The notes beneath the pieces are model-generated. The model was not told the DNA's origin and searched no databases. It worked only from the letters and a program-made list of their open reading frames with translations. A stretch of DNA of 64,000 bases from Comamonas halotolerans (GTDB taxonomy: Bacteria > Pseudomonadota > Gammaproteobacteria > Burkholderiales > Burkholderiaceae_C). Of this stretch, positions 57,366 through 60,298 are shown piece after piece. The position numbers and the translations under genes are program-made. Every line of letters starts with the position of its first letter. Within the stretch, counting starts at the first letter, position 1. Location: assembly GCF_030162935.1 (NCBI RefSeq), contig NZ_JASAUZ010000001.1, positions 372,001 through 436,000 on the forward strand. Reading direction: 5' to 3'.

Positions 57366-58520
57366 TTAAACGGTCAACTCGGCCTGCGCCTGCTCCATCA
57401 AAACCCGGCGCGTTTGCACTGCGCCTGACAGCTGTTCCATCACTTCCAAAGTATCTCCCCATCCAATGCAGGCATCAGTGATGCTTTGGCCATAGCTCAG
57501 CCCGCGGACATCATCCTTGCCAGGAGTGAATTTCTGCGCCCCTGATACCAGGTGGCTCTCCAGCATCACGCCAAAGATGCGCCTGGAGCCAGCCGCCATT
57601 TGCGCGGCAATATCAGCCACCACATCTTTTTGGCGCTCATGCTGCTTGAGGCTGTTGGCATGGCTGCAGTCCACCATCAAGCTCGCTGGCAAACCTGCTT
57701 TTTCCAGATCCGCGCACGCGGCCTCCACACTGGCTGCGTCGTAGTTGGGTGTCTTGCCCCCGCGCAAAATCACGTGGCAGTCTGGATTACCTGCGGTATG
57801 TACGATAGCTACCTGGCCATTTTTATGCACCGACAGGAAGTGGTGCCCATGGCTGGCCGACTGAATGGCGTCGGTTGCAATACGGATATTGCCGTCCGTG
57901 CCATTCTTGAAACCAATGGGAGCCGAGATACCGGATGCCAGTTCACGGTGAATCTGGCTCTCGGTTGTGCGAGCGCCGATGGCTCCCCAACTGATCAAAT
58001 CACCAATGTATTGGGGCGAGATCACATCCAGAAACTCACTGGCGGCGGGCACGCCCAGACGATTGATATCAATGAGCAGCTGGCGCGCAATGCGCAAACC
58101 CTCATCGATGCGGTAGCTGCCATCGAGGTAGGGGTCATTGATCAAACCCTTCCAGCCGACTGTGGTGCGAGGCTTTTCGAAGTACACGCGCATCACCACT
58201 TCCAATGTGTCCTTGTATTGCTCGCGCACATCCGCGAGGCGGCGTGCATAGTCCAAAGCAGCGGCAGGATCATGAATGGAGCATGGACCAACAATCACCA
58301 GCAAACGGTCATCTCCACGGGCATGCAAGATGTTGCGAATGGTCTGGCGGGTCTCTCCAACCAACGATTCAATGGCTGTGCCATGGATAGGGAAAAAGCG
58401 GATCAGATGTTCTGGAGGGGGCAGCACGGTGGTGTCCTTGATACGTTCGTCGTCGGTATGTCCTGTTTTGTGATTGACCGAGCTGCGATACCAAGCGTCG
58501 CCATAGTTCTGATTTGTCAT
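57366..58520 (-). CDS. aroG: 3-deoxy-7-phosphoheptulonate (DAHP) synthase, class I
   Basis: Condenses phosphoenolpyruvate and erythrose 4-phosphate in the first step of the shikimate pathway. The 384-residue protein has LVIVGPCSIHDPAAALDYA, MRVYFEKPRTTVGWKGLINDP, SWGAIGARTTESQIHRELASG, LRGGKTPNYD and DCSHANS, and a slightly long N-terminus before PPPEHL. The isozyme (aroF, aroG or aroH) is not certain from sequence, so the symbol is a default. The leader upstream carries an aromatic-rich peptide and a terminator (see the separate features), which suggests control by attenuation and not only by end-product inhibition. Confidence 0.94.
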   Translation of the reverse strand: MTNQNYGDAWYRSSVNHKTGHTDDERIKDTTVLPPPEHLIRFFPIHGTAIESLVGETRQTIRNILHARGDDRLLVIVGPCSIHDPAAALDYARRLADVREQYKDTLEVVMRVYFEKPRTTVGWKGLINDPYLDGSYRIDEGLRIARQLLIDINRLGVPAASEFLDVISPQYIGDLISWGAIGARTTESQIHRELASGISAPIGFKNGTDGNIRIATDAIQSASHGHHFLSVHKNGQVAIVHTAGNPDCHVILRGGKTPNYDAASVEAACADLEKAGLPASLMVDCSHANSLKQHERQKDVVADIAAQMAAGSRRIFGVMLESHLVSGAQKFTPGKDDVRGLSYGQSITDACIGWGDTLEVMEQLSGAVQTRRVLMEQAQAELTV

Positions 58521-58553
58521 GTCTGCCTCTTCGACCTAAATAAAACGTGGGTA

Positions 58554-58590
58554 TAAAAAAACCGCCGAGCTATTCAGCTTCGGCGGTTTT
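58554..58590 (-). terminator. Attenuator terminator in the aroG leader
   Basis: Minus-strand AAAACCGCCGAAGCT-gaat-AGCTCGGCGGTTTT with seven T, ending 34 bases before the aroG start codon and 37 bases after the leader-peptide stop. No gene lies upstream on the same strand that it would end, which points to attenuation. Confidence 0.88.
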
Positions 58591-58626
58591 CTTGGGAGGG
58601 TGTACGTGTGTTCGAGCGCTTGCCTC

Positions 58627-58683
58627 TCATCCGCCATGGACCGAGAACCAAAAGTAAAAATAGAAAGCGCTGTGAACTTGCAT
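58627..58683 (-). CDS. Leader peptide with seven consecutive aromatic residues
   Basis: An ATG-to-TGA frame of 18 codons encoding MQVHSAFYFYFWFSVHGG. Codons 7-13 are Phe-Tyr-Phe-Tyr-Phe-Trp-Phe. The chance of such a run is very small, and its place directly before a terminator and a DAHP synthase gene makes it a control peptide. A stalled ribosome would report shortage of charged tRNA-Phe, -Tyr or -Trp. A GAGGTG sequence lies 15 bases upstream of the ATG, a somewhat long spacing. The start codon is inside one arm of an inverted repeat, so initiation may also depend on folding. Not confirmed by experiment here. Confidence 0.85.
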   Translation of the reverse strand: MQVHSAFYFYFWFSVHGG

Positions 58684-58763
58684 GGCGGATGACTTTAACA
58701 CCTCAAATAGTGCGCCGCAACATACCAAGCACACCAAATTCAGGAAAATTCCATTTACCCAAC

Positions 58764-58802
58764 AAAAAAAGGCTGATTCACAATAACAAATCAGCCTTTT
58801 TA
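58764..58802. terminator. Bidirectional terminator after tldD, before the aroG promoter
   Basis: AAAAAGGCTGATT...AATCAGCCTTTTT with A/T runs on both sides; it ends the tldD transcript on the minus strand. Confidence 0.88.
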
Positions 58803-58837
58803 AAAATTATCGCAACAAAACTGCAAAACAAATCAAA

Positions 58838-60298
58838 TTAAGCAGTTCCACCTACCGTCAGTCCATCAATGCGCATGGTGGGTTGTCCAACACCCACTGG
58901 CACGCTTTGACCCTCCTTGCCACAGGTCCCCACACCGCTGTCCAGACGCATGTCATTGCCGATCAGGCTGACCTTCTTCATACACTCTGGCCCATTGCCC
59001 ACCAAAGTGGCTCCCTTGACGGGATATTGAATCTTGCCGTTCTCCACCCAGAAAGCCTGGCTGGCTGAGAACACAAACTTACCGCTGGTAATGTCCACCT
59101 GACCACCGCCAAAGTTGGTGGCATAAAGGCCCTTTTTGATGGACGCAATAATTTCCTGCGGATCCTTGTCGCCACCCAGCATGTAGGTATTGGTCATGCG
59201 TGGCATGGGCAGGCTCGCATAGCTTTCGCGACGGCCATTGCCAGTGGGTTTCACGCCCATTAAGCGAGCGTTGAGCGAGTCCTGGATGTAGCCTTTCAAG
59301 ATACCGTCTTCAATCAGCACATTGGCCTGTGTGGGGCAGCCTTCATCATCAACATTCAGTGACCCACGGCGATCCGCCAATGTGCCATCGTCGAGAATCG
59401 TGACGCCCTTGGCCGCGACACGCTCACCGATTCGGCCACTGAAAGCACTCGACCCCTTGCGGTTGAAATCGCCTTCCAGACCATGGCCCACGGCTTCATG
59501 CAACAGGACACCCGGCCAGCCGGGGCCCAGTACTACGGTCATTTCACCTGCGGGAGCAGGGCGCGAATCCAGGTTAATCAGCGCCTGTTCAACGGCCTCG
59601 TTCACATAGGTGGTGATTTGTTCATCACTGAAGTACGCCAGCCCAAAGCGTCCTCCGCCACCGGATGATCCCACCTCACGACGATCACCTTGCTCTGCAA
59701 TCACTGTGACAGAAAGACGAACCAGGGGGCGCACATCTGCAGCCAACGTACCGCCTGCACGCGCCACCATGACCACGTCATATTCACTGGCCAATCCTGC
59801 CATCACTTGCACAATGCGAGGATCTTTGGCGCGGGCCAGTTGCTCCACTTTGCCCAACAGTTCCACCTTCTGCGTGCTGTCAAGCGTTGCAATCGGGTCA
59901 ATGCCAGGATACAGCGTACGCGAGAGAGCAATTGATGTCTTGGGAAGGCGCACCTTGCGTTGCTGATGGCTACCCGAGATAGCACGCACCGTCCGGGCAG
60001 CATCCAGCAGCGAGGCTTCAGAGATGTCGTCAGAGTATGCAAAAGCCGTTTTCTCACCGCTGACAGCGCGCACGCCTACGCCCTGGTCGATAGAGAATGA
60101 GCCCGTTTTCACGATGCCCTCTTCCAGGCTCCAGCCCTCTGAGCGGGTGTATTGAAAGTAAAGGTCTGCATCATCCACCTGATTGGCGCGGATTTCCGCC
60201 AGCGCACGCGACAGGTGGGACTCATCCAAGCCAAAAGGCTCAAGCAGCAGTTGCCGGGCTGTGGCCAGGCGCTCGATGGTGGGTTCGCGAGAGATCAT
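58838..60298 (-). CDS. tldD: Metalloprotease TldD
   Basis: Metalloprotease subunit that acts with TldE/PmbA on small unfolded peptides, for example in microcin maturation and CcdA degradation. The 486-residue protein has ADLYFQYTRSEGWSLEEGIVK, the zinc motif HEAVGHGLEGD (HExxxH), KGSSAFSGRIGERVAA and a C-terminal Cys in GTCGKEGQSVPVGVGQP. The start at 60298 is one of two ATGs three codons apart (other at 60307); neither has a clear ribosome site. TldE is not in the window. Confidence 0.94.
   Translation of the reverse strand: MISREPTIERLATARQLLLEPFGLDESHLSRALAEIRANQVDDADLYFQYTRSEGWSLEEGIVKTGSFSIDQGVGVRAVSGEKTAFAYSDDISEASLLDAARTVRAISGSHQQRKVRLPKTSIALSRTLYPGIDPIATLDSTQKVELLGKVEQLARAKDPRIVQVMAGLASEYDVVMVARAGGTLAADVRPLVRLSVTVIAEQGDRREVGSSGGGGRFGLAYFSDEQITTYVNEAVEQALINLDSRPAPAGEMTVVLGPGWPGVLLHEAVGHGLEGDFNRKGSSAFSGRIGERVAAKGVTILDDGTLADRRGSLNVDDEGCPTQANVLIEDGILKGYIQDSLNARLMGVKPTGNGRRESYASLPMPRMTNTYMLGGDKDPQEIIASIKKGLYATNFGGGQVDITSGKFVFSASQAFWVENGKIQYPVKGATLVGNGPECMKKVSLIGNDMRLDSGVGTCGKEGQSVPVGVGQPTMRIDGLTVGGTA

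Follow-up and report, generated by a model that had tools for sequence, protein, structure and literature searches.

We found that the region between tldD and the gene for DAHP synthase very probably encodes a ribosome-mediated transcription attenuator, predicted from conservation and modelling to turn the DAHP synthase gene on when aromatic amino acids run short. The element was identified in a 64-kb stretch of DNA from Comamonas halotolerans, the whole of which we refer to as the window. A sequence-only reading of the same DNA had proposed peptide-based attenuation at this gene, and the proposal is strongly supported by conservation, by covariation of an antiterminator and by the geometry of a stalled ribosome.

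Results

The element lies on the minus strand, in a U-rich intergenic region of 317 nt that runs from tldD (a TldD equivalog) to the DAHP synthase gene, the first gene of aromatic amino acid synthesis, whose ATG is at 58520. It consists of an extended -10-like site, an 18-codon open reading frame (ORF) and a hairpin with a U tract. The parts are as follows.

58715..58720, minus strand: -35-like hexamer TTGCGG, 17 bp upstream of the -10-like hexamer, matching TTGACA at 3 of 6 positions
58692..58697, minus strand: -10-like hexamer TAAAGT after TGn (extended -10; site TGTTAAAGT), ending 8 nt before the leader ATG
58627..58683, minus strand: leader ORF MQVHSAFYFYFWFSVHGG with its stop codon, predicted to be leaderless; relatives have little or no Shine-Dalgarno sequence here
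58645..58665, minus strand: control codons TTC TAT TTT TAC TTT TGG TTC (F Y F Y F W F), codons 7-13 of the leader; the run is kept in relatives
58623..58639, minus strand: segment 2 CCATGGCGGATGAGAGG, putative 5' half of the antiterminator, overlapping the last ORF codons and the stop; near-invariant GGCGG..GAGAG that covaries with segment 3
58581..58590, minus strand: segment 3 AAAACCGCCG, 5' arm of the terminator and 3' half of the putative antiterminator, from folding and alignments
58555..58567, minus strand: segment 4 CGGCGG, 3' arm of the terminator, with the U tract at 58561-58555, from folding and conservation
57366..58520, minus strand: DAHP synthase (aroF/G/H family), the regulated gene, TIGR00034 at 523.3 bits

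The enzyme passed the NCBIfam model TIGR00034 (aroFGH) well above its cut-off of 173.2 bits and missed the NCBIfam cut-off for the AroG equivalog (535.3 vs 568). Among the best 80 of 593 matches, the closest named relative was Comamonas kerstersii, with 86% identity in the enzyme. A second DAHP synthase in the source genome (L002, G000:C45:21391-22440; 58% identical) has no such leader: none was seen on reading upstream by eye, and there was no strong covariance-model match. In another genome (G309), a further DAHP synthase fragment with 55% identity lies on the same strand beyond the attenuated gene (L103), possibly as a tandem pair.

By eye, tldD has a hairpin and U run of its own (58801-58763, minus strand; AAAAAGGCTGATT...AATCAGCCTTTTTTT), which a simple terminator scan did not return. 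Its position after tldD suggests that the leader is transcribed separately. Consensus scans of 57800-59200 gave one terminator-like site (1.2 expected) and no sigma-70 site (1.3 expected), and we regard them as neutral evidence.

The leader ORF and its conservation

The leader frame runs from an ATG at 58683-58681 to a stop codon at 58629-58627 and encodes 18 codons, a size at which ORFs are easily missed by gene lists. The F-Y-F-Y-F-W-F run described in the sequence-only reading is present, with codons 7-13 at 58665-58645, and it is the sole run of at least 7 aromatic residues in the six frames of the window. When the 317-nt intergenic region was shuffled with its dinucleotides preserved, 30 of 3000 shuffles contained an ORF in which 7 or more of 10 codons were aromatic. 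Because shuffled sequence reaches the same aromatic density, a single sequence cannot settle the question of chance; the window sequence alone is about a 1% event, and the comparative evidence is decisive.

We compared the locus with a near set made up of the best 80 of 593 matches, a set biased to close relatives. An aromatic-rich leader was found upstream in 76 of these 80 homologous loci, and 75 of the 76 also carried the terminator (76 of 77 when the window is included). The one locus without it, L026, is shortened at the terminator position, which looks like a deletion or an assembly fault, and it was left out of the structure counts, leaving 76 sequences. The four near loci without a leader were L068, which had 10 bases of upstream DNA only, L080 and L082 (Polynucleobacter), in which the gene by eye follows some 30 bases after the preceding reading frame, and L081 (Cupriavidus).

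A chance ORF was ruled out by aromatic enrichment that is specific to the leader frame in relatives. Across 76 leaders, the aromatics per best ten codons came to 6.57 in the leader frame versus 2.33 and 2.03 in the other frames, a comparison that is partly built in because near leaders were chosen by aromatic content. Tyrosine accounted for 12.8% and tryptophan for 5.6% of codons in the leader frame, versus at most 0.9% and 1.8% in the others. Phenylalanine was encoded by UUU at 218 of 330 positions in the near leaders (L003-L079) and at 156 of 680 in 80 DAHP synthase genes, where UUC made up 524 of the 680; the preference for UUU in leaders may give higher sensitivity or keep the RNA unpaired. 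Histidine partly replaces the aromatic codons in L040, L057, L060, L061 and L069 (e.g. RYHFWHFHIQHL, RFYFWHFHLPPH), which may reflect drift or a further input.

We trained a covariance model, R1, on the near set and used it for an independent search of 399 genomes of the order. Some match was obtained in 179 genomes at E 0.01, many of those listed being terminator-only. We took 110 loci from this order sample (30 retrieved automatically, 80 from their coordinates); in 105 of them the gene directly downstream encodes DAHP synthase. A second model (R2) was trained on the same sample that it was run on and serves as a tally only: 112 of 399 genomes matched at E 1e-5, of which 104 were strong (E below 1e-6) and spread over 14 family codes, and eight were weak. 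Class-wide, 22 of 369 genomes matched at E 1e-4 and only 4 were strong outside the order; out of 20 class-wide loci examined, these 4 alone had a DAHP synthase gene. We rejected a second target in the source genome, where the 25 further R1 matches had E values of 2.3e-4 or worse and were all partial; the 7 that were read were terminators without an aromatic leader.

A terminator kept without the aromatic run, which the sequence-only reading had named as evidence against attenuation, was seen in 2 of 105 loci. Both belong to a genus (g71 of family f44) in which the run is decaying, and they keep segment 2 and the terminator with a single Phe codon (L189, L193). At L162, the leader frame is shifted.

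Two loci resemble leaders for other genes. The weak R2 match L222 (799-990, genome G120) has a leader MNQNRFAFYGFYWWRPA, a GC-rich hairpin and a T-rich tail about 190 nt before trpS (TIGR00233), and its sequence suggests a distinct attenuator, rich in Trp, for tryptophanyl-tRNA synthetase. At L221 (1397-1554 of the minus strand, genome G308), a Leu-rich short ORF, MELFIAALLSLLLLSRLKDR..., is followed by a terminator and may be a leucine leader.

Terminator and putative antiterminator

The strong terminator said to lie 34 bases before the gene is borne out: its hairpin and U tract occupy 58593-58555, with 34 bases from the last U to the DAHP synthase ATG. The 151 nt from 58550 to 58700 fold with a z-score of -3.68, and none of 200 shuffles was as stable. 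The block that ends the ORF (GGCGGnnGAGAG) is near-invariant, being mostly CCGGCGGnnGAGAG in relatives, and it can pair with the 5' arm of the terminator because its first part repeats the 3' arm. It also covaries with the 5' arm. Folding thus predicts an antiterminator, formed by segments 2 and 3, that is mutually exclusive with the terminator and overlaps the path of the ribosome, and covariation points the same way.

We examined the 2:3 pairing in two alignments. Alignment A1 holds 58 of the 76 near sequences and was thinned by hand, with 18 left out. Native partners in these 58 sequences had a mean energy of -18.4 kcal/mol versus -17.5 kcal/mol for permuted partners, with none of 2000 permutations as good, and the pairing showed 7 double changes versus 2.1 in shuffles. 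The RNAalifold consensus of A1 contains the terminator only. Alignment A2 holds the 99 sequences matched out of 100 hand-picked loci across the order, with 20 of the 110 order-sample loci absent, including the decayed L189. Here 90.8% of cells paired, versus at most 54.5% in slid controls, and both sides had changed in 27 cells, where shuffles gave 12.5 (0 of 500). Counted as pairs that show a double change, these 99 sequences did not exceed shuffles (2 vs 1.7; 374 of 500), since variation is slight over most of the block, and the two varying pairs were unpaired in 25 and 33 of the 99.

The nucleotide at one varying position of segment 2, T or C, tracks A or G in segment 3 (41 and 1; 10 and 23; Fisher 1.5e-10, uncorrected for ancestry). 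At one column triple, segments 2, 3 and 4 change together, reading T-A-T in 37 and C-G-C in 21 of 99 sequences, again uncorrected for ancestry and from an alignment fitted to the terminator, not to the 2:3 pairing; both the 2:3 and the 3:4 pair are kept in 60 of the 99. The terminator (3:4) pairing covaries too.

Putative promoter and transcript start

In 76 of the 77 near sequences, TGn is followed by a TANNNT hexamer that ends 6-9 nt ahead of the leader ATG; the lone exception, L050, may start two codons earlier. Outside the window's family (f1), 46 of 88 leaders had a TANNNT ending at the same 6-9 nt, versus 0 of 88 at the five control positions, 14-18. No conserved -35 was found in relatives. 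A Shine-Dalgarno match of at least 4 nt was present at 3 of 76 leaders versus 62 of 75 DAHP synthase starts. The simplest reading of these sequences is a leaderless leader mRNA whose 5' end coincides with the ATG or lies no more than a few nt from it, a start that we infer from the position of the -10-like site.

Ribosome geometry and proposed mechanism

We set the front edge of the ribosome at 12 nt past the start of the A-site codon, an assumed geometry. The last aromatic codon before segment 2 starts at a median of 14 nt before GGCGG (range 11-21, n = 76), and a ribosome on this codon would have its front edge at a median of about 0 to -2 nt from GGCGG (-2 with aromatic codons inside segment 2 dropped and the segment 2 position of L074 corrected, 0 otherwise). 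With the ribosome at the stop codon, the edge would lie 18 to 51 nt past GGCGG, the value of 51 coming from L074, in which the segment 2 position was mis-set.

When the RNA was folded up to segment 3, the 2:3 pairing was the predicted fold in 72 of 76 sequences with the ribosome on the last aromatic codon and in 70 of 76 with it on the first. With no ribosome, 2:3 was predicted in 29 of 76, and segment 2 was paired upstream in 35 of 76. Once segment 4 was present, the terminator was predicted as the most stable fold in 70 of 76, even when the ribosome was stalled, so that read-through must be kinetic and depend on the order of synthesis. Read-through in known attenuators depends on the order of synthesis likewise.

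The analysis shows the parts of the element, how well they are conserved, two pairings that exclude each other, their covariation and their spacing. From these we infer where the transcript starts, that the leader is translated, that ribosomes stall and that the polymerase reads through, as well as which of the three amino acids matter, in the following course of events. A short transcript would start at or next to the leader AUG, and a ribosome would begin on this leaderless 5' end and read the aromatic run. When charged tRNA-Phe is plentiful, along with tRNA-Tyr and tRNA-Trp where their codons occur, the ribosome would reach the stop region and cover or pass segment 2, the 3:4 terminator would form, and the RNA would end 34 nt before the gene, as a terminated leader of roughly 130 nt. 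When a charged aromatic tRNA is scarce, the ribosome would stall within the run, its front edge reaching GGCGG or stopping just short of it. Segment 2 would then pair with segment 3 before segment 4 is made, the terminator would not form, and DAHP synthase would be transcribed.

Which amino acids may be sensed

We counted codons in 165 of 169 distinct leader peptides, those with at least 3 aromatics in ten codons, leaving out L158 (start mis-set), L189, L192 and L193. All 165 contained Phe, 151 contained Tyr, 107 contained Trp and 102 contained all three. In the near set (n = 77), Phe was present in 77, Tyr in 76, Trp in 69 and all three in 69. Outside the window's family (n = 88), the values were 87, 74, 36 and 32, the lone leader without Phe being the mis-set L158. 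These near and far counts leave out 11 of the 110 order-sample loci: five with a start off the model start (L121, L153, L168, L171, L197), five with no DAHP synthase (L183, L192, L194, L195, L196), and L083, which is the window itself. By these codon counts Phe is the core of the run, Tyr is nearly so, and Trp is regular mainly in the near set. Triple sensing by the leader is possible but unproven.

We consider it an even call whether the attenuator acts in practice as a sensor of Phe, or of Phe and Tyr, with the Trp codon incidental. The universal presence of Phe and the frequency of Trp outside the window's family (36 of 88) fit this account, as does the enzyme, which is closer in sequence to PDB entries named as Phe-sensitive (453.9 bits) than to those named as Tyr-sensitive (378.1 bits). 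The presence of a codon is also no proof of sensing, because the aroR leader of Corynebacterium glutamicum, which contains Phe-Tyr-Phe, is reported in a review to respond to Phe and not to Tyr (PMC11802643). Against an incidental Trp codon stand its occurrence in 69 of 77 near leaders, mostly as F-W-F, the frame-specific excess of Tyr and Trp given above, and the predicted geometry, by which segment 2 stays free whichever aromatic codon of the window's run the ribosome stalls on.

The alternative is that in most near relatives the leader works as an OR gate, in which a shortage of any one of Phe, Tyr and Trp would open the entry step of the pathway by way of a leaderless transcript with no conserved protector hairpin. 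We consider this plausible from the codons, though we lean slightly against it. Enteric bacteria use separate Phe-, Tyr- and Trp-responsive repressors, which an OR gate, if true, would replace. ORF scans of the source genome showed no aromatic-rich short ORF upstream of trpE and, at pheA, only two TTG-started aromatic-rich short ORFs inside the preceding reading frame, which would fit a signal placed at the common step.

A stem around the ORF

The window also contains a perfect 12-bp stem around the ORF (58692-58681 with 58638-58627), raising the question of whether the attenuator is of the trp type, with this stem as a working 1:2 pause or protector hairpin. At -22.6 kcal/mol it is the strongest of the 76 sequences, and the upstream pairing of segment 2 in 35 of 76 without a ribosome would allow some protection even without a fixed stem. 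The pairing is not conserved, however, with 821 and 989 of 1000 permutations as good as the native partners. Nine of the 12 bases of the 5' arm precede the ATG, the probable start of the transcript, and counted from the ATG onwards the stem is worth only -8.2 kcal/mol. We therefore rejected it as a conserved 1:2 pause hairpin on the permutation tests and on the A1 consensus, and judge a working role in the window unlikely; by sequence comparison the stem is peculiar to this locus, unless transcription begins farther upstream. The sequence-only reading had proposed a check for co-variation of the aromatic codons and both stems across relatives, which holds in that the codons are kept in nearly all loci and the terminator and antiterminator covary, and fails for the stem around the ORF.

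Possible arrest by the nascent peptide and other readings

An aromatic peptide could itself stall the ribosome on a ligand, as TnaC does in response to tryptophan, with slow decoding playing no part. YFWFS and a C-terminal GGRE are well conserved near the window, and at two aligned positions in YFWFS the Phe codon is almost invariant, TTT at one and TTC at the other (third base 55 T, 3 C and 54 C, 4 T in the 58 sequences of A1, columns 48-58), so that more than the amino acid is constrained there. The third base is free at two other aligned aromatic codons (38 C, 14 T; 32 T, 25 C). Conservation at the C-terminal end tracks the RNA, also in loci with another stop or frame (L003, L029, L039), and the aromatic run varies widely in order, number and length. 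The variable runs rule out nascent-chain arrest as the main reading, and we hold it highly improbable. In A1, UUCUC in the YFWFS part could also pair with GAGAG of segment 2.

That the hairpin is a plain constitutive terminator or a small RNA gene, with the ORF a by-product of a U-rich stretch, would accommodate the 30 of 3000 shuffles and the partial matches elsewhere in the genome that are ordinary terminators (7 of 25 read), but is scarcely credible against frame-specific aromatic enrichment, a covarying antiterminator, fixed promoter-to-ATG and codon-to-segment spacing and the 105 of 110 matches before DAHP synthase.

Discussion

Judged by these comparisons, the element is a real, conserved attenuator whose mechanism is of a known kind. 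Membership of a known leader family, which the sequence-only reading had wished to see checked, was not found: at gathering score there was no Rfam match in the window, to Trp_leader, Phe_leader or any other family, and the single match in 19 relatives was to an SRP RNA that lies apart from the leader. The open-licence literature searched contained no description of the element, and a phrase search of it returned only the C. glutamicum paper; an earlier description may exist in Vitreschak 2004 or Neshat 2014. PMC2965389 and PMC4833913 use none of the terms aromatic, phenylalanine and aroF in their main text.

If the attenuator works as proposed, many Burkholderiales would govern the flow of carbon into the aromatic amino acids by a simple device made of RNA only. 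The element adds a well-supported cis-regulatory family to which our Rfam searches gave no match, and its consecutive codons for three amino acids make it a natural setting in which to ask whether such a run forms a true multi-input sensor. It may also be of use in aromatic production strains.

The trpL and pheL leaders of Escherichia coli (Rfam Trp_leader and Phe_leader) combine a leader peptide, control codons and mutually exclusive antiterminator and terminator structures. The element described here is built alike and differs in the gene it precedes, its three types of aromatic codon, the little Shine-Dalgarno sequence, and the absence of a conserved 1:2 hairpin and of an Rfam match. Branched-chain attenuators such as that of ilvGMEDA are multivalent leaders, so that a multi-input leader, which the sequence-only reading had called unusual, is not new in kind. 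As in ilvGMEDA, one leader carries codons for several end products of a shared pathway; here these are the aromatic amino acids and the gene is that of the common entry enzyme, with multivalency a prediction from the codons. The ilvGMEDA operon is named in PMC1183508.

An AUG that forms the 5' end, predicted here from the position of the -10-like site, has been reported from 5' end data for trpL of Sinorhizobium meliloti (PMC7298713) and for the ilvB leader of Corynebacterium diphtheriae (PMC5784534). The uORFC-13-1 motif of Acholeplasma, as described in PMC8632094, is likewise a predicted Phe uORF with a terminator before aroF, a DAHP synthase gene, but has a ribosome binding site and one or more Phe codons and comes from another lineage. 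The aroR-aroF system of C. glutamicum belongs to a different phylum, and its leader has only Phe-Tyr-Phe, with Tyr reported to be without effect; we liken the two by description. As in our element, a leader peptide with an aromatic run precedes the DAHP synthase gene there, and read-through is reported under Phe limitation (PMC4046766, PMC11802643).
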